Source: Enterococcus pallens ATCC BAA-351
Lineage (GTDB): Bacteria > Bacillota > Bacilli > Lactobacillales > Enterococcaceae
Assembly (NCBI RefSeq): GCF_000407485.1
Contig: NZ_ASWD01000002.1
Location: 1,116,001-1,180,000, forward strand
Direction: 5' to 3'
DNA: 64,000 nucleotides
Shown one piece after another: positions 24,597 to 51,463 of the stretch. Every line of letters starts with the position of its first letter. Position 1 is the stretch's first letter. A program made the translations under genes and the position numbers. The notes beneath the pieces were generated by a model, which searched no databases, was not told where the DNA came from, and worked only from the letters and a program-made list of their open reading frames with translations.

Positions 24597-24826
24597 AAAA
24601 AACACGCGTCTTTTGAGTTTCCTCAAAAGACGCGTGTTCACGTGGTCCCACTTTTGTTTGCAGCTCTTGCTGCCTCTGACGGATAACGGTCGTTTGCCGT
24701 TTTTGGCTACCAGAAACTCGCCAAAACCACTCCAAGATGCATTTCACAGGGTTCATCTTATCTGCTTACACCAGCCGCAGACTCTCTTAGAAGACTTCTT
24801 CCTGCTACTTCTTCTTATCAATGTGT
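24597..24826 (-). promoter_or_regulatory. Cysteine T-box leader of cysE-cysS
   Basis: tRNA-sensing transcription leader between gltX and cysE. The T-box core TGGGACCACG lies at 24650-24641 and overlaps the base of the terminator region. A terminator hairpin with a 16-bp stem (24637-24601) ends in a T-run. Upstream, the AGAGAGT-type stem I base is near 24787-24781, and a specifier-like loop GAAATGCATC places TGC (Cys) at 24741-24739 followed by A. Gene context and specifier agree, so tRNA-Cys sensing is well supported. B. subtilis has the same gltX/T-box/cysE layout. Confidence 0.9.
24601..24637 (-). terminator. Terminator within the T-box leader
   Basis: ACACGCGTCTTTTGAG pairs perfectly with CTCAAAAGACGCGTGT around GAAA, then a T-run. 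It forms when charged tRNA-Cys is bound and the antiterminator is not made. Confidence 0.9.
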
Positions 24827-26284
24827 TTACATTACTTGATTTAAATGTGCCAAAGCCTTTTCTTTACCTAATAACTCGACAGTTTCAGGTAATTCAGGGC
24901 CGTGTGTAACGCCACTAACAGCAACACGGATCGGCATCCAAAGGTTTTTACCTTTGACACCCGTTTCTTTTTGAACAGCCTTGATCGCTGCTAAAACACC
25001 TGCTGCATCAACGGTTTCCATATCTTCTAGTTGTTCTTTAAACGCACTTAGAACCATGGGAACAGTTTCTTGCGCTAAAACTTCTTGAGCGGCTTCATCC
25101 AATACAGGATGTTCTTCAAAGAATAATTGAGATACTTCCACGATTTCAGCTGCAAAGCTCATTTGTGGTTGGTATAAACCAACTACTCGTTGAACCCAAG
25201 CTTTACGATCTTCACTTGGATTTTCTTCTACTTTACCTGCTTTAATTAAAAATGGCAAACACAATTCAGTCAATGTGGTTAAGTCCATTGCTTTGATGTA
25301 GTGATTATTTACCCATTCTAATTTCTTTTGATCAAAGGCTGCAGGTGATTTGCTTAAACGTTTGGTATCAAACATCTTAACTAACTCTTCTTGAGAGAAG
25401 ATTTCGTCTTCACCAACTGGCGACCAGCCTAGCAAAGCAATAAAGTTGAACATTGCTTCTGGCAAGTAGCCTAATTCGCGATATTGCTCAATGAATTGCA
25501 GGATTGATTCATCCCGCTTGCTTAGCTTTTTACCGGTTTCGCTATTAATAATTAACGTCATATGCCCAAAGGTTGGACGAGGCCAGCCAAAGGCATCGTA
25601 AATCATTAATTGTTTTGGTGTATTAGCAATATGGTCATCGCCACGTAATACGTGGGTGATCTTCATCATGTGATCGTCTACTGCTACTGCAAAGTTGTAA
25701 GTAGGCATGCCATCGCGTTTTTGAATAACAAAATCGCCGCCGACATTATCTGATTCAAAGTTGATTTCGCCTTTTACCATATCTTCAAAGCTGTAAGTTG
25801 TGTTACGTGGTACGCGGAAACGAATAACTGGTTCTAAGCCTTGCGCTTCTTTTTCTGCTTGCTGCTCAGGACTCAGGTTGGCACATTTGCCGCCGTAGTG
25901 AGGCATTTCGCCACGTGCACGCTGCGCTTCTCTCTCAGCTTCTAATTCTTCCTCTGTACAATAGCACTTATACGCTAAATTACTGGCTAGTAATTGGTCA
26001 ATCAACGGTTGATAGATTGCTTTCCGTTCTGATTGTCGGTAAGGGCCGTATTCGCCTGGTTTATCAGGAGACTCATCCCAATCCATTCCCAACCAAGCTA
26101 AGTTTTCCAGCTGGCTTTTTTCACCATCGGCAATGTTGCGCTTTTGGTCAGTATCCTCAATACGAATGATAAATTCACCATCATTGTGACGAGCAAATAA
26201 ATAGTTGAATAACGCTGTCCGGGCATTTCCAATGTGTAAATGTCCAGTTGGACTTGGTGCATAACGCACACGAATTTTTGACAT
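24827..26284 (-). CDS. gltX: Glutamyl-tRNA synthetase
   Basis: Class I synthetase of 485 aa. HIGH motif HLHIGN in [24 protein letters not shown]-like KKLSKRDES. The ATG at 26284 has GAGGAG five bases upstream; a longer reading has no ribosome site. It lies between yacL and the T-box leader. Firmicutes of this type usually use a non-discriminating GltX with GatCAB to make Gln-tRNA; this cannot be judged from the sequence alone. Confidence 0.96.
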
Positions 26285-39930: not shown

Positions 39931-39990
39931 ATGATGAACAGAAATCACTCACAACTGAATAACAGCTTTTTCTTTAGCTTTTTTAGATAG
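39931..39990 (+). CDS. Phe-rich leader peptide (19 aa)
   Basis: MMNRNHSQLNNSFFFSFFR then TAG. Five of the last seven residues are Phe (TTT TTC TTT AGC TTT TTT, 39967-39984). GGAGGT lies seven bases before the ATG. Its position between a good promoter and an intrinsic terminator, and the pairing of its Phe codons with downstream RNA, point to a regulatory peptide whose translation reports tRNA-Phe charging. Confidence 0.8.
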   Translation: MMNRNHSQLNNSFFFSFFR

Positions 39991-40157
39991 GTTTGTATTC
40001 ATCAAGATGGATGCAAACGACCTACGTTTTGTATCTATCTATGATGGCTAAAGAGTTTTGACGTACCACCAGCCACGTAGAAGTAATCGAAGTGGCTGAA
40101 GAATTCTATTCTCGTATTCCCATCATCCACTTAGTTTACTGAGTGGATGATTTTTTT
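39972..40157 (+). promoter_or_regulatory. Predicted Phe-responsive transcription attenuator
   Basis: Segment 1 (CTTTAG 39972-39977 and AGATAG 39985-39990, in and after the Phe codons) pairs with segment 2 (CTATCT 40035-40040 and CTAAAG 40048-40053). A 12-bp hairpin (39991-40018) lies between. Segment 2 also holds ATGATGG (40041-40047), which can pair with CCATCAT (40120-40126), the 5' arm of the terminator at 40122-40157. A ribosome stalled on Phe codons would mask segment 1 and favour the antiterminator. Confidence 0.7.
40122..40157 (+). terminator. Attenuator terminator before the TrpX-like gene
   Basis: ATCATCCACT / AGTGGATGAT perfect 10-bp stem followed by seven T, 22 bases before the gene's start codon. 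Confidence 0.88.
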
Positions 40158-40178
40158 ATGGAAAAGGAGAAAATAAAA

Positions 40179-45678: not shown

Positions 45679-45746
45679 TGTTGTTCGCTCCTTCCTTTCT
45701 ACCTTATCACCTTTTGCATAAATCTGCAATATGAAAATGCACATCG

Positions 45747-45762
45747 TTGCAAAATATTGCAA
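45747..45762. promoter_or_regulatory. Pair of TTGCAA motifs between deoR and the LysR leader
   Basis: TTGCAA at 45747-45752 and 45757-45762, ten bases (one helical turn) apart, with further TGCA words nearby. TTGCAA is itself a palindrome. A plausible DeoR-family operator in the divergent promoter region; not proven. Confidence 0.4.
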
Positions 45763-45784
45763 AAGGTTGTATAAATCTTTTCCT

Positions 45785-45812
45785 TTGAATATCATTAAAA
45801 CTATGCTATTCT
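45785..45812 (+). promoter_or_regulatory. Possible promoter of the LysR leader transcript
   Basis: TTGAAT (45785-45790), 16 bp, TGC-extended TATTCT (45807-45812). Only moderately close to consensus. Confidence 0.45.
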
Positions 45813-45846
45813 TATTCATACTATTTTAACGAAGGTGATGAATGTG

Positions 45847-45989
45847 ATGCGTATCTACCAGTCAACCCGTTTCTTAACAGCAAACTGCCGTAACATGATG
45901 TGTCCATACGCATCATGTTCTTTGGCGTATACTCAGATTGCCGGATGCAATCTAGCCAGGGGACTTGATGAAAATCAAGTCCCCTTTTT
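45847..45989 (+). promoter_or_regulatory. Cys-leader attenuator 1, upstream of LysR
   Basis: An ATG at 45847 (GGTGAT seven bases before) opens a reading frame with Cys codons at 45886, 45901 and 45916 in NMMCPYASCSLAYT. Pairings: segment 1 AACATGATG (45892-45900) with segment 2 CATCATGTT (45911-45919), 9 bp perfect; segment 2 GTTCTTTGGC (45917-45926) with segment 3 GCCAGGGGAC (45955-45964), 10 bp with wobbles; segment 3 GGGGACTTGAT (45959-45969) with segment 4 ATCAAGTCCCC (45974-45984) and T-run, the terminator. Unlike leader 2 the frame has no stop and continues in phase into LysR. Confidence 0.75.
45959..45989 (+). terminator. Attenuator 1 terminator
   Basis: Perfect 11-bp stem GGGGACTTGAT / ATCAAGTCCCC with GAAA loop, then TTTTTC, 26 bases before the LysR start. 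Confidence 0.88.
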
Positions 45990-46014
45990 CTTTTATCTAG
46001 AAAGGAGTTTTATG

Positions 46015-46938
46015 ATGAATTTTCAACAATGCCGCTATGCTGTAGCGATCGCTAAAGCCGGCAGCTTTAGTCAGGCCGCGAAGGATTTATTTGTTACCCA
46101 GTCCAGCCTTTCTACTGCCATCAAGGAGTTGGAAACCTCCCTTGGCATCCGTTTGTTTCATCGTTCCAAATCAGGGGTTCGCTTAACGGAAGAAGGCAGT
46201 GAGTTTTTAGTGTCCGCACGCCGTATTTTGGCTCAGGTGGAGCTGCTGGAGAATCAGTATCAGCCCAACAAGAAAAAAGATTTTGTGATCGCTGCTCAGC
46301 ATTACGATTTTTTGTCCCAGCCCTTCTTGACTGTCTTTCACCAGTTTCAGCAGGAGTGCCAGAGCTTTCATTTGATTGAAACCACGACCCAAAAAATTAT
46401 TGAAAGTCTGCAAAGCTTCCGCAGCGAGCTGGGAATTTTGTATTTAACCCCTGCTAATAAACGGTCACTGGAGCGGCATTTTGCACAAGAGCAGTTGACT
46501 TTTCAGCCGTTGGGAAATTTTGTTACTCGGATTTTCCTGCGCAAGGATCATCCCTTGGCTGAAAAAGCACAGCTGACGATTCAAGATTTGGCTGACTATC
46601 CGCAAATTCGTTTTAATCAGGAGGAGTATGAGTTTTCTCACTTTGAAGAGGACCCGCTAGAGATTCCTACTGAGCAGGCAGTAATTTACGCCAACGATCG
46701 GGGTACCCTGCTGAATTTATTGTGCGGTTCAGATGCCTATGCTTCAGGCTTGGGGATTGTAGAAGGCTTTGCTAAGGACCAGATTGTCTTGCTTCCCTTG
46801 GCCGATTCCGATATCCATACACTGGGGGTCGTCTATCATCAGCAGCGCTCCCTGAGTGACATGGCCGAGCGTTTCATTAAGGAAGTTCAAATCGCTGTGA
46901 ATCAGTCCACTGTATCTATTGAGAAAATCAATGGGTGA
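46015..46938 (+). CDS. LysR-family transcriptional regulator
   Basis: 307 aa. The N-terminal HTH is CRYAVAIAKAGSFSQAAKDLF and TQSSLSTAIKELETSLG; a C-terminal periplasmic-binding-like sensor domain follows. The ATG at 46015 has AAAGGAG seven bases upstream; an adjacent ATG at 46012 is closer. The frame is also open back to the Cys leader, so an N-terminally extended form is possible. It precedes the URO-D/ABC operon in the same direction and is a good candidate regulator of sulphur-amino-acid genes, like CmbR/CysR proteins; the ligand is unknown. Confidence 0.87.
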   Translation: MNFQQCRYAVAIAKAGSFSQAAKDLFVTQSSLSTAIKELETSLGIRLFHRSKSGVRLTEEGSEFLVSARRILAQVELLENQYQPNKKKDFVIAAQHYDFLSQPFLTVFHQFQQECQSFHLIETTTQKIIESLQSFRSELGILYLTPANKRSLERHFAQEQLTFQPLGNFVTRIFLRKDHPLAEKAQLTIQDLADYPQIRFNQEEYEFSHFEEDPLEIPTEQAVIYANDRGTLLNLLCGSDAYASGLGIVEGFAKDQIVLLPLADSDIHTLGVVYHQQRSLSDMAERFIKEVQIAVNQSTVSIEKING

Positions 46939-46975
46939 CCATCAATAACAACAATTATCCAAATGACCTGGAACT

Positions 46976-46984
46976 TGGTATAGT
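46976..46984 (+). promoter_or_regulatory. Extended -10 promoter of Cys-leader 2
   Basis: TGGTATAGT, a TGn-extended -10 element, 33 bases before the leader peptide ATG. The -35 region is weak, which could fit an activator such as the upstream LysR protein. Confidence 0.55.
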
Positions 46985-47016
46985 TAGAAAAAGTTAAAAC
47001 AAGGAGGAGAACACGG

Positions 47017-47103
47017 ATGTTAACAGTCAATCATTCAGCAATCACAACTGAATCAATGAACATGGCTTGTCAATGCATGCCGTGTTCTTTAGCGTACCCT
47101 TAA
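47017..47103 (+). CDS. Cys-containing leader peptide (28 aa)
   Basis: Begins MLTVNHSAITTES and ends NMACQCMPCSLAYP before TAA. Three Cys codons (47068, 47074, 47083) cluster next to the stop. AAGGAGGA lies nine bases upstream. The last part is homologous to the leader before LysR (C-x4-CSLAY), with synonymous third-base changes in Leu and Tyr codons, which supports real translation. It probably reports tRNA-Cys charging. Confidence 0.8.
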   Translation: MLTVNHSAITTESMNMACQCMPCSLAYP

Positions 47104-47166
47104 AGGAATGAAGCTCATTTCAAAAGGTGCACTAAAGGACTTGATGCCTATTCAAGTCCTTTTTTC
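47059..47166 (+). promoter_or_regulatory. Cys-leader attenuator 2, upstream of the URO-D/ABC operon
   Basis: Pairings: segment 1 AACATGGC (47059-47066) with segment 2 GCCGTGTT (47079-47086), 8 bp with one wobble; segment 2 from GTTC to GTACC (47084-47098) with segment 3 from GGTGC to AAGGAC (47126-47140), about 15 bp with one mismatch; segment 3 AAAGGACTTGA (47134-47144) with segment 4 TCAAGTCCTTT (47152-47162) and T-run. Segment 1 adjoins the first Cys codon, so ribosome stalling would free segment 2 to make the antiterminator. Confidence 0.78.
47134..47166 (+). terminator. Attenuator 2 terminator
   Basis: AAAGGACTTGA / TCAAGTCCTTT stem, then a T-run. The core GGACTTGAT...TCAAGTCC is shared with attenuator 1. 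Confidence 0.87.
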
Positions 47167-47178
47167 TTTGGCTTAGTT

Positions 47179-47200
47179 GCGAATTTTTTCACAAATTCGC
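47179..47200. repeat. Short hairpin between attenuator 2 and the URO-D-like gene
   Basis: GCGAATTT and AAATTCGC, 8-bp arms around 6 bases, in the 110-bp stretch between terminator and gene. No T-run. Its role is unknown. Confidence 0.35.
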
Positions 47201-47275
47201 TACATTTAAGCAATGATGCGTCGCTGCTATTCATCCCTTATGAGGGGTTCAAAACAAAAAAAGGAGTGTTTTTAC

Positions 47276-48283
47276 ATGTCAAAAAGAGAATTGGTTTTAC
47301 GTGCACTGCATCAACAGCAAGTCGAAAGAGTCCCGGTCGGTTTTTGGTTTCATTTTATTACCAATGAAGAAGAGCTGCGGCAGCCAGTCCCAGCGGTTAT
47401 TGAACGCAACATTGCTGGTCATCAAGCGTTTATCGCAGACTTCCAGCCAGATTTCGTTAAATTGATGAGTGACGGTTTCTTCTACTATCCCAATGATCAA
47501 ATTGCCCAAGCTAAAACGATTGATGACTTGAAAAATATTCAATCCATCGGCAAAGATCATACCTGGATTCAGCAGCAAGTAGACTTAGTGAAGCAGCAAA
47601 AGGAACAATTCGTCGAAGATATCGCGGCCTTTTACAATATTTTTGCACCAGCGACTTATTTTAAATGGCAGCTGGCAGGTGGTGAAGCTCAATTTGCGGA
47701 TTTTTTATTAGAGAATCCTGATTTGACAAAGCAGGTGTTAGCAGTGATTGCTGAGGATATTGCTTATCTAGTCACTGCCATTTTGAGTCAAACCGATATT
47801 GATGGCATTTACTTGAGTGTTCAAAATGTGCAGGATCCGCGAATTTCTTCTGATGCTTACGCTCAGTTGGTTCGCAGCTCTGATTTGCTTGTTCTGAAGG
47901 CGGCTAATACCGTCTCTGCCAACAACATTTTGCATATTTGCGGTTACGAAGGAGCAACAAACGATTTGTCCCTTTATCAAGATTATCCTTCCGCAGCGGT
48001 TAATTGGGCAGTTGGTCCTGAAGAGCTGTCGTTAGCCGAAGGAAAAGAATTATTTGAACGAACTGTCATTGGCGGCTTTGATAATACGGTGAACAGTGTG
48101 CTTTATCAAGGCAATCAAACCGATATCCAGCACACCGCCCAAGCCCTGCTGGAGGAGGCTGGTGAGACTGGGGTAATTTTAGGAGCTGATTGCACCGTGC
48201 CAAGTGATATTCCGCTGGAGTATTTGCAATGGGTTCGAGAAGTAACCTATCAAAAGGCTGCCAGCACTAGCGATAACTACTAG
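47276..48283 (+). CDS. Uroporphyrinogen decarboxylase-like (MtaA/CmuA-type) methyltransferase
   Basis: 335 aa with a URO-D superfamily barrel: MSKRELVLRALHQQQVERVPVGFW at the start (in short segments), ILHICGYEGATNDL and GGFDNTVNSVLYQG later. Relatives include HemE and methyl- or corrinoid-transferases such as MtaA. The lack of haem genes nearby and the amino-acid transporter downstream argue against HemE. It may demethylate or dealkylate an imported thioether or amino acid; this is inference. The ATG at 47276 has AAGGAG nine bases upstream. First gene after attenuator 2. Confidence 0.75.
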   Translation: MSKRELVLRALHQQQVERVPVGFWFHFITNEEELRQPVPAVIERNIAGHQAFIADFQPDFVKLMSDGFFYYPNDQIAQAKTIDDLKNIQSIGKDHTWIQQQVDLVKQQKEQFVEDIAAFYNIFAPATYFKWQLAGGEAQFADFLLENPDLTKQVLAVIAEDIAYLVTAILSQTDIDGIYLSVQNVQDPRISSDAYAQLVRSSDLLVLKAANTVSANNILHICGYEGATNDLSLYQDYPSAAVNWAVGPEELSLAEGKELFERTVIGGFDNTVNSVLYQGNQTDIQHTAQALLEEAGETGVILGADCTVPSDIPLEYLQWVREVTYQKAASTSDNY

Positions 48284-48320: not shown

Positions 48321-49178
48321 ATGAAGAAAATCATTATTGGTTTAGGCATTGTTTTAGTACTGGCTGGAGGAACCTTTTGGGTCAGGCAAAGCAATCGACC
48401 AGAAGCGGCTGATGAAAAGGTGACAACTATAAAAGTTGCTCATACCCAAAATTATGTTCCTTACGATTTCATCAATGAAAAGGGTGAATCCGATGGGTAT
48501 GAGGTTCAGGTCTTAAAAGCAGTGGATAAAAAGCTGCCTCAATATAAGCTGGAGTACACCGGCACCAGTGACGACGATTTACTGATCGGCTTGGAATCAG
48601 GAAAATATGATGTAGGCGTTAAGGGTGCTTGGTACACCGCTGAACGGGCGAAGAAATTCATTCTGCCAGAAGAAAAAATCGGTGCCAGCATCATTGGCTT
48701 CACTATTCGCAAAGAAGACGCCGGAACCATCACTGATATCGACTCGTTTGCAAAAACAGGAGGCAAACTTGTACCGATTTCACCGCAAAATGCTCAGTGG
48801 AACGTAATCGAAGAATATAACAAGGAGCATGCTGATCAGCCGATTCAGCTGACTGCCGCCGAAGCTTTTAATGTCGCAGATGCCTATGCTTGGGTATTGG
48901 AAAAACGCTATGATGCCTTCTTTGATATCAAGCTTTCCTATGAAGAAGCCATCCAAAATGAAGACGGTGCTTATCATCAATATGCTGATCAGCTGACCTA
49001 TGTGCCTTACAAAGGTATCCCTACCTACCCGCTGCTGCATCGCAATGAACAGAATAAGGAATTTGCTAAAGCCTATGAAGGAGCCATTCGTGAACTGGAA
49101 AAAGACGGCACGCTTCAAGCCTTATCGGAGGAATATTTTGGTGAGGATGTTTTCAAATTTATTGATGAGAATAACTAA
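48321..49178 (+). CDS. Amino-acid ABC transporter substrate-binding protein (family 3)
   Basis: 285 aa, SBP_bac_3 type: KVAHTQNYVPYDFINEKGES, GYEVQVLKAVDKKLP, LIGLESGKYDVGVKGAWYT. The N-terminal hydrophobic segment has no lipobox Cys, so it is membrane-anchored or secreted rather than a lipoprotein. It resembles cystine/polar-amino-acid binders such as YxeM/TcyA; exact ligand unknown. It follows the URO-D-like gene by 37 bp and precedes two permeases and an ATPase. Confidence 0.87.
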   Translation: MKKIIIGLGIVLVLAGGTFWVRQSNRPEAADEKVTTIKVAHTQNYVPYDFINEKGESDGYEVQVLKAVDKKLPQYKLEYTGTSDDDLLIGLESGKYDVGVKGAWYTAERAKKFILPEEKIGASIIGFTIRKEDAGTITDIDSFAKTGGKLVPISPQNAQWNVIEEYNKEHADQPIQLTAAEAFNVADAYAWVLEKRYDAFFDIKLSYEEAIQNEDGAYHQYADQLTYVPYKGIPTYPLLHRNEQNKEFAKAYEGAIRELEKDGTLQALSEEYFGEDVFKFIDENN

Positions 49179-49189
49179 GGAGGAATTCG

Positions 49190-49918
49190 ATGGTCTCTTT
49201 TGATCCGGCACATATCGTTCAAGTATTGCCCGACCTGCTGGTACATTTGCCGGTTACGCTAGCTGTCGCTGGCGTAACTGTGCTTCTAGGAACCCTTTTA
49301 GGTGGCTTGGTCGCCTGGGGGCTGCTGACTTCAGATAAACATGTAAGAAAGATTGCCGAGAGCTATGTGTTTGTTTTACGTTGTACTCCGCCAATTGTGC
49401 TGCTGTTTATCGTATTTTACGGCTTTCCCCGCTTCCTTAGCTGGTGGCTGGGCATTGAAAGTGACGGCTGGTCTCGCGGTGTCTTCGTAGTTATCGCCAT
49501 GACTTTATTGTTTGCGGCGATTATTTCTAAAGTTTTCACCTCTGCCTATCTGGCAGTGCCGAAGGGTCAATTGGAGGCGGGGTTGAGTATCGGGCTCTCG
49601 CCGTTGCAAACTTTTTACCGTATCTTGTTGCCTCAAGCTGCTAGAATTGCCTTGCCGAATTTTTCAACTGCCCTGCTTAATTTGATGAAGGATGCCGCCT
49701 TAGCCTATACGATTGGCTTAGTTGATGTTTTGGGTGGTGCAAACCTTTTAATCAGCCGCAATTTCGGCAATTATTCGCTGGAAACTTATACAGCGGCAGC
49801 GATTATTTATTGGGGCTTGGCCTTTGTACTAACCTTAGCCACTCAAGCTGCTGAACAACTGTTATCACCAGCAGGATTCCAGTTTCACCTAGCTCGCAGT
49901 CGCTCCAGCAAAAAATAG
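49190..49918 (+). CDS. Amino-acid ABC transporter permease 1
   Basis: 242 aa HisM-type permease. About five hydrophobic helices; the EAA-like loop is KGQLEAGLSIGLSPLQTFYRILLPQAAR, read in parts near 122-149. It starts 11 bp after the binding protein gene with a GGAGG site, and forms a heterodimer with permease 2. Confidence 0.9.
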   Translation: MVSFDPAHIVQVLPDLLVHLPVTLAVAGVTVLLGTLLGGLVAWGLLTSDKHVRKIAESYVFVLRCTPPIVLLFIVFYGFPRFLSWWLGIESDGWSRGVFVVIAMTLLFAAIISKVFTSAYLAVPKGQLEAGLSIGLSPLQTFYRILLPQAARIALPNFSTALLNLMKDAALAYTIGLVDVLGGANLLISRNFGNYSLETYTAAAIIYWGLAFVLTLATQAAEQLLSPAGFQFHLARSRSSKK

Positions 49919-50016: not shown

Positions 50017-50793
50017 ATGGATTGGCAGTTTATCATCGAAACCTTTTTTCTCACTTTAAAGGGTGTGCCTACTACCTTAGCTATCATGGTAGTAGCTTTT
50101 GTACTTAGTTTTTTACCAGCCTTACTGCTGGCTCTGGCGCGGATTCATCAGGTAAAGGGCGTTACGGCCTTTTCCATGGTTTATCTGGCCTTCGTGCGGG
50201 CAACTCCGCCGATTTTACTTATCTTATTTTTCTACAGCCTGCTGCCTAGTGTCTTAAATGTTTTCATGCAGCACATTGGCAGCTCGGTGAATGTCTTTGA
50301 ATTTAATCCGATCTTCTATGCCTTTATCGTCTTTGGCTTTTTTACTACGGCCAGCTTATCGGAAGTCTTCCGCTCGGCTTTGATGACGGTGGACAAAGGA
50401 CAGCTGGAGGCTGGACAGGCGGTTGGGTTAAGTACCTTTCAAACCTACCGCCGGATTATTTTTCCGCAAGCTCTGGTTTCAGCTTTACCGAATTTATGTA
50501 ATCTGATGATCAATTTAGTTAAAGGAACCTCTTTAGTTTTTGTTATGACGGTACAGGATATTACCGCTATCGCTCGGGTACAAGCGGCTTACGGCTACCA
50601 CTATTTTGAAGCCTATTTTGTCATTTTCGTGGTGTATTTACTACTGTGCGGAGCTATTCAAGGAGTGTTCTCGTTGCTGCAACGCCGTATTTTCCGACAA
50701 TCCATTAGAAGTAAGCGAAAGGAGCAAGCCCATGTTAAACGCTACCCATATTCACAAAAGCTTTCAGCAGCAAGCAGTTTTAAAAGACGTTAG
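50017..50793 (+). CDS. Amino-acid ABC transporter permease 2
   Basis: 258 aa HisM-type permease with [19 protein letters not shown] and the EAA-like loop [26 protein letters not shown] lies nine bases before the ATG; a second AGGAG in the 98-bp gap has no start. The C-terminus runs 62 bp into the ATPase gene, adding about 20 basic residues beyond the usual family end. Confidence 0.9.
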
Positions 50794-51463
50794 CCTGCAG
50801 GTAAATCAAGGAGATGTCATTGTAATCCTCGGCCCCAGCGGTTCTGGTAAAACTACTTTTCTCCGCTGCCTGAATGGTTTGGAGCAAGCCGACAGCGGCG
50901 AATTGGCTATTGCTGATGCCGCCTACGACTTAGCCAAAATTTCCAGTAAAGATATATTAGCTCTTCGTAAAAAGACCGCCTTTGTTTTTCAGCACTACAA
51001 TTTGTTTGCCAATAAGACAGCCTTGGAAAATGTGTTAGAAGGCTTAATTATCGCCCGTAAGGTTCCAAAAGGCGAAGCTCTGAAAACGGCCCGGGAAGCG
51101 ATTGCTAAGGTTGGCCTGTCCAGTCACGAAAATTATTATCCTCATGAATTATCTGGAGGCCAGCAGCAGCGAATCGGCATTGCCCGGGCAATTGCCGTGA
51201 AGCCAGACGTTCTGCTGTTTGATGAACCTACCTCCGCCTTAGATCCTGAGCTGATCGGCGACGTTCTGCAGGTGATGCGGCAGCTGGCGGAAGAAGGCAT
51301 TACCATGGTGGTGGTTACACATGAGATGGGCTTTGCCCGCGACATTGCTAACCATGTAGTTTTTATGGATGAAGGTCGAATCATCGAAGAAGGTGCACCT
51401 AAGGAATTCTTTGCAGCACCGAAAGAAGAGCGGACCAAACGCTTTTTAGCCCGAATTAGTTAA
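50732..51463 (+). CDS. Amino-acid ABC transporter ATP-binding protein
   Basis: 243 aa. Walker [10 protein letters not shown], signature LSGGQQQR, Walker [13 protein letters not shown] and the switch His in VVTHEMG. GlnQ/TcyC-type polar amino-acid importer ATPase. The ATG at 50732 has AAAGGAG seven bases upstream and lies inside the end of permease 2. Last gene of the operon, closed by a terminator. Confidence 0.92.

Follow-up and report, generated by a model that had tools for sequence, protein, structure and literature searches.

A predicted ribosome-mediated attenuator with cysteine control codons ahead of sulfur operons and lysR genes in enterococci and other Lactobacillales

In the 64,000-nucleotide stretch of Enterococcus pallens DNA analysed here (the window), the RNA ahead of an operon for a URO-D superfamily protein and a putative cystine-type ABC transporter very probably acts as a ribosome-mediated transcription attenuator responding to how much charged tRNA-Cys is available. 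The support comes from the anatomy of the leader, its homology, the covariation of its helices, the conservation of its codons and its folding geometry, from which we infer its promoter, the stalling of the ribosome, read-through, activation by LysR and the response to cysteine. Twelve related leaders are found in nine genomes of two families, seven of them preceding sulfur operons and five preceding lysR.

The leader ORF (47017..47103; features of the window are on the forward strand unless marked otherwise) has 28 codons encoding MLTVNHSAITTESMNMACQCMPCSLAYP followed by a stop, and is preceded by the Shine-Dalgarno sequence AAGGAGGAG (47001..47009). The ORF, its ribosome site and the three Cys codons at 47068, 47074 and 47083 are all present in the sequence as an earlier note on this DNA had described them. 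Further upstream an extended -10-like element, TGGTATAGT (46976..46984), is the putative leader promoter, and its TGGTATAGTT is unchanged in all four aligned sequences. The element was not listed by a promoter scan and has no consensus -35, which would fit activation by the LysR-family regulator encoded directly upstream of the leader (46012..46938; PF00126/PF03466).

Four segments of the RNA can pair in alternative ways. Segment 1 (47059..47066) pairs with nucleotides 47079-47086 of segment 2 (47079..47098), and two of these pairs are changed on both sides across the homologues. Nucleotides 47084-47098 of segment 2 form the antiterminator with 47126-47140 of segment 3 (47126..47144), with one C-A mismatch, while 47134-47144 of segment 3 are the left arm of an intrinsic terminator whose other arm, 47152-47162, belongs to segment 4, which together with the U tract spans 47152..47165 (terminator prediction and alignment). 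Segment 3 is therefore common to antiterminator and terminator, as previously claimed, with 47126-47140 and 47134-47144 overlapping, and 1:2 and 2:3 share just 3 nt. All three pairings proposed in the earlier note are present, but the 2:3 helix conserved in the 12 homologues has 9-10 bp and not 15. The first two Cys codons, TGT (47068..47070) and TGC (47074..47076), lie in the loop of 1:2, and the third (47083..47085) lies within the pairing strand. The folding energy of 47053-47166 is -43.7 kcal/mol against -22.3 (sd 3.22) for shuffled sequences, a z-score of -6.65, and none of 200 shuffles folded as well as the native sequence. Among 101 ORFs of 10-45 codons with an SD-like site in the window, eight have clustered Cys codons, and by a crude test a terminator lies downstream of the leader only.

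The first gene of the operon encodes the URO-D superfamily protein (47276..48283), which is distantly MtaA/CmuA-like, with PF01208 above its cut-off and TIGR01463 far below. A sequence search for a solved relative of this protein found none; its HxC...GADC motif could, we presume, be a Zn thiol site. There follow a solute-binding protein (48321..49178; PF00497), the nearest named relatives of which are cystine-type (NF008426, below cut-off) and the PDB relatives of which include YtmK and Lmo2349, and then, assigned from profile models, two ABC permeases (49190..49918 and 50017..50793) and an ABC ATPase (50729..51463) with cystine TcyN as its nearest model, again below cut-off. For the ABC parts as a whole, models of cystine transport are the closest or rank among the closest, none reaching its cut-off, and the substrate of the operon is putatively cystine-type.

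The earlier note gave one leader, yet the window holds two. Matches to covariance models R1 (E 9.7e-11) and R2 (E 3.0e-16) place a previously unreported copy at 45847..45989, ahead of lysR, with an ORF start at 45847, a 1:2 helix of 45892-45900 with 45911-45919 and a terminator at 45958-45985. In this copy the second loop Cys is replaced by Tyr, the SD-like site is weak and the frame has no stop before the terminator, continuing into LysR (45847-46938); the frame through the copy is listed as 367 codons from 45835. The copy is partly decayed.

Homologous leaders were sought by a DNA search of 98 genomes, by searches with the URO-D protein and by reading upstream sequence. Five further leaders of URO-D operons were found, in Enterococcus sp. 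665A, Enterococcus sp. 669A, E. raffinosus N17 and the genomes G001 and G112, the last belonging to another genus of the Enterococcaceae. A search of enterococcal genomes with a covariance model had been proposed in the earlier note and was carried out with success: the first model, built from six URO-D-operon leaders and searched in 105 genomes of the family, added a leader in G006 (E 9.2e-16), one in G047 and copies upstream of lysR in the window's own genome, 665A and 669A, with strong matches (E < 1e-6) in eight of the 105. A second model, searched in 395 genomes of the order, brought in G290 (E 4.3e-12), which belongs to a different family of that order, and also matched a decayed remnant of a lysR leader in G331 (G331:C1:444322-444432), which has lost its lysR and was excluded, as locus L104, from alignments and counts. 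A search of 76 genomes from the family of G290 returned G290, G331 and two weak matches. The third model, R3, applied at E <= 1e-4 to 279 genomes of the class and 329 of the phylum, matched the window's own genome alone, the filters being stricter in the large class, phylum and family searches so that weak matches were lost, and a plasmid search left the leader unmatched. Copies before both lysR and the operon occur in three of the nine genomes, and an SD-like site, judged by eye, with a frame open through the loop is present in all 12 leaders.

Several candidates were set aside. The covariance models also gave weaker matches, many of them from the first model, and the eleven that were read (L063-L066, L105-L108, L110, L141 and L142) are by eye terminators without this leader. 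What BLAST matched to the 5' part of the leader in G003 and G018 is where an ABC gene begins (MLTVDHLYKSF). The pattern CSLAYP-stop gave five matches in five of the 105 family genomes, three of which are leaders; those in G056 and G134 lie, by eye, antisense inside a coding gene.

Within the 105 family genomes the leader accompanies all six URO-D orthologues with identities of 50% or more; a seventh, distant relative (29%), in G047, is on a different contig from that genome's leader. In the order, URO-D relatives at E <= 1e-30 occur in 45 of 395 genomes, three of them Enterococcaceae. At 28 of the URO-D loci (L075-L102) the sequence upstream of the best-matching copy was read and the leader was absent, and where copies are in tandem the sequence upstream of the first was inspected in few loci. 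Three of these 28 loci gave a Cys-containing ORF by filter, the position of which indicates the preceding coding sequence. At L100, L101 and L102 (G424, G415 and G156, from another family of the order) a T-box stands upstream of the URO-D gene, with a putative specifier that by eye looks like AUG. A distant URO-D relative in Limosilactobacillus mucosae (L031, upstream of 6001) is preceded by a short SD-led ORF containing a single Cys, followed by a terminator, their sequence being unlike the window leader, and relatives of this URO-D gene occur on L. mucosae plasmids. In G112 about 450 bases with repeated segments (L042 1050-1500) separate the leader terminator from the start of the URO-D gene.

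The genes that follow the leader in G006 are of a second kind. There it lies between lysR and an operon with a cystathionine-lyase-like gene, cysK (TIGR01139 above cut-off), an ABC transporter nearest to cystine-type models, below their cut-offs, and an amidohydrolase, in a genome that yielded no URO-D relative at E <= 1e-20. Upstream of its lysR are metE, a PatB-type C-S lyase and a MetB-like gene. It is because the leader precedes this cystathionine-lyase-like, cysK and cystine-type operon that the switch can be tied to cysteine. The lysR leader of G290 adjoins a cluster of binding protein, permease, ATPase and amidohydrolase genes (by BLAST to the window proteins and by eye), and the remnant in G331 lies near the same transport cluster.

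The short ORF and the 1:2, 2:3 and 3:4 pairings are found in all 12 leaders, with compensatory changes in every helix. The alignment was made by sequence, and the models were given the structure, so that matches to them lean toward it. Pairing is possible in 95.2% of the cells of 1:2, 95.0% of those of the first ten pairs of 2:3 and 98.5% of those of 3:4, and falls to 16-61%, 32-69% and 25-62% respectively when the partners are slid by 1-3 columns. Cells changed on both sides number 4, 4 and 8 in 1:2, 2:3 and 3:4, which was reached by 0, 7 and 0 of 500 shuffles, although 12 sequences are few and related, and relatedness can beat shuffles without structure; the number of pairs that show such double changes is by itself unremarkable (58, 185 and 56 of 500 shuffles). 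The window and 665A have G-C at 47065/47080 and C-G at 47066/47079, where nine other leaders have A-U and U-A respectively; 47091/47133 of 2:3 occurs as A-U in three operon leaders, against G-C in seven leaders, and the second pair of the terminator changes from A-U to G-C in four members. Absence of covariation among homologues had been set beforehand as an outcome that would speak against the switch, and all three helices covary.

In the stretch just 5' of segment 2 the 12 leaders have 22 Cys codons in the frame of the ORF and 12 and 0 in the other two, the 12 in another frame weakening the case. Ten leaders carry two loop Cys codons, as Cys-x-Cys, and two, the window lysR copy and G047, carry one; TGT and TGC interchange, with Q, R, L, P or M encoded between them. 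The operon leader of 669A has a loop 4 nt shorter and a shifted frame, giving a peptide that ends in MACQCRVL-stop, and in G047 and G290 CHHVLW replaces CSLAY in the frame over segment 2. In these three leaders the RNA of segment 2 and the loop Cys codons are kept, and the third Cys codon is out of frame. Since the loop Cys persists where the downstream frame has shifted, it is the codons that are kept and not the peptide end, and the likeness of the C-terminal peptides is explained by base pairing.

Folding of the masked and unmasked leader, also proposed earlier, was performed in silico with 30 nt masked around each A-site and the transcript folded up to segment 4, and gave the expected switch, with the lysR leader of G290 as a partial exception. 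A ribosome placed at the first loop Cys gave a predicted probability of the 2:3 pairing, P(2:3), of 0.73-1.00 in the 11 leaders having that codon. At the second, nine leaders gave 0.51-0.66 and 669A gave 0.02; at the third it was 0.00 in the nine leaders having it, and at the stop 0.00 in all 11 leaders with a nearby stop. For the window the values were 0.82 at the first Cys (47068), 0.66 at the second (47074) and 0.00 at the third (47083). Thus, of the Cys codons suggested as control codons in the earlier note, those at 47068 and 47074 can act as such, but that at 47083 cannot, because segment 2 would then lie under the ribosome. When the last Cys codon as far as segment 2 was taken, P(2:3) was 0.00 in nine leaders, 0.02 in 669A, 0.05 in the lysR leader of G047 and 0.51, with the ribosome at the second Cys, in that of G290. 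In the leader of G047, which does not have the first loop Cys, the value was 0.05 at the one loop Cys present and 0.84 at a Cys codon farther upstream.

Folding without any masked ribosome gave P(2:3) values from 0.08 to 1.00 over the 12 leaders, with 0.39 for the window leader and 0.95-1.00 for those of G006 and G001. The probability is already high in some leaders because 1:2 competes weakly, and untranslated leader RNA might, on this model, read through. When the full transcript was folded at equilibrium with the ribosome at the first loop Cys, the 3:4 pairing was 0.85 in the window and at least 0.60 in eight of 11 leaders. As 3:4 is still favoured at equilibrium, read-through must be kinetic; in known attenuators the switch is kinetic.

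The proposed mechanism would therefore run as follows. When cysteine is plentiful the ribosome would pass Cys-x-Cys and cover segment 2, allowing 3:4 to form and transcription to end near 47166. When Cys-tRNA is scarce it would stall at 47068-47076, covering segment 1, and 2:3 would form before segment 4 is made, so that RNA polymerase could enter the URO-D/cystine-type ABC operon. In some species the copy upstream of lysR would put the presumed activator under the same control. That scarcity of charged tRNA-Cys stalls the ribosome and turns the genes on had been suggested from the one leader, and the 12 leaders, their codons and the predicted folding are consistent with it.

Two other readings turn on what the peptide or the RNA might sense by itself. 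The sequence CxCxxCSLAY is common to the operon leaders of the window, 665A, raffinosus and G001 and to two lysR leaders, with Pro-stop in some, which could suggest a TnaC-like arrest in which the nascent CSLAYP-stop peptide senses a ligand in the tunnel and stalls the ribosome at the stop. This seems very unlikely, as the peptide ends differ and frames shift, with MACQCRVL-stop in 669A, SLANFC-stop in G112, SLVSP-stop in G006, SLAYL-stop or SLAYV-stop elsewhere and CHHVLW continuing in G047 and G290, and as the DNA at the peptide end is explained by pairing. Arrest at the stop would moreover favour termination, 2:3 being abolished in the 11 leaders with a nearby stop. The window and 665A differ by four nonsynonymous changes and one synonymous, all in codons 5-9, and raffinosus and G001 by eight and five; because of these differences much of the leader peptide looks unconstrained. 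A slightly smaller chance is given to an RNA that binds a ligand or protein directly, as a riboswitch or T-box does, the ORF being incidental. The RNA is indeed better conserved than the peptide end, and T-boxes are plentiful, with 24 matches in the window's own genome, 16 of them above the Rfam cut-off. Against this, Rfam has no match at the leader at gathering score, lax filters over 45700-47300 giving six sub-gathering matches to unrelated families, and RF00230 has none there though it is detected at 24623-24830 of the same window; the SD-like site and open loop frame are found in 12 of 12 leaders, and an in-frame loop Cys is present in the frame-shifted members too.

Least probable of all would seem a plain terminator behind a small ORF, with no regulation by cysteine. 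The terminator is there, and the data are solely comparative, but the alternative pairing 2:3 and its geometry are conserved, and the same element recurs ahead of lysR and of another kind of sulfur operon. Attenuation by charged tRNA-Cys, in contrast, accords with the features of a trp-type system that the leader displays, namely an SD-led ORF, Cys codons in the loop, covarying helices and, in silico, a stall that frees segment 2. A wider proposal, which we put forward tentatively and consider rather less than even in its chances, is that in Lactobacillales a duplicating Cys-attenuator cassette governs a sulfur operon together with its LysR activator as a feed-forward loop, the RNA switch being kept and the loop Cys selected while ORFs are re-framed, and that the lysR frame in the window might couple translation to antitermination in a new way.

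Ten of the 24 ORFs taken as downstream of T-boxes in the window's own genome are named by their nearest model, as MetQ (three), MetN, O-acetylhomoserine sulfhydrylase, a MetE-like protein, LuxS, LysR, proline-tRNA ligase and a cystine-type permease. The match upstream of the cystine-type permease gene is L119 (G000:C3:647957-648183), and that upstream of the LysR gene, a different one from that in the window, is L125 (G000:C1:258558-258805). Cystine uptake in this genome may thus also be under a T-box, and cysteine may not be sensed by peptides alone. The window itself contains the T-box leader at 24623-24830 on the reverse strand (RF00230, 132 bits) and, on the forward strand, Enterococcus sRNA 2410 at 39974-40163 (RF02863, 86 bits).

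The four-segment logic of the window leader is that of the enterobacterial trp and his attenuators, although its 1:2 and 2:3 overlap little and no homology is claimed. Cysteine-responsive, leaderless ORFs in mycobacteria were reportedly, to go by the title, the subject of Canestrari et al. in 2020. Leaders with Cys codons but without obvious terminators have been predicted in Actinobacteria (PMC1262725), which resemble the present ones in being short ORFs with Cys codons ahead of cysteine operons; in Mycobacterium the Cys codons come in runs and a conserved terminator hairpin is absent, whereas the window leader has an SD-led ORF and covarying 2:3 and 3:4. Closer in design is uORFC-8-2 of Rhodobacterales, a Cys attenuator with a terminator predicted ahead of cysS (PMC8632094), which likewise has a uORF, two Cys codons in the first stem, an intrinsic terminator and proposed attenuation by Cys-tRNA. 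It is found in alpha-proteobacteria, ahead of cysS only, with tandem Cys codons usually at codons 14-15 (PMC8632094), whereas the enterococcal leader, compared by description, has Cys-x-Cys, belongs to Lactobacillales and stands ahead of uptake and biosynthesis operons and lysR; the window leader neither precedes cysS nor has tandem Cys codons. To the earlier remark that peptide attenuators are uncommon in Firmicutes it may be added that histidine ones were already predicted, at hisS*/hisZ in bacilli, where they replace the T-box and are presented as the first outside Proteobacteria and Actinobacteria, ermC excepted (PMC2965389). These share with the window leader an amino-acid leader peptide in Firmicutes but differ in reading histidine, and in the text of that article cysteine appears once, in the reference list (PMC2965389). 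Searches of the openly licensed literature turned up no account of cysteine leader peptides in enterococci or elsewhere in Lactobacillales. The leaders are a new sequence family of predicted ribosome-mediated attenuators in this order, set apart from uORFC-8-2 by description.

Firmicutes are taught as users of T-boxes. The occurrence of a Cys-codon attenuator and T-boxes in one genome suggests that both sensing strategies coexist there, and the leaders of operons and of lysR, together with the frame-shifted members, are natural variants with which the needs of a leader-peptide attenuator may be tested.
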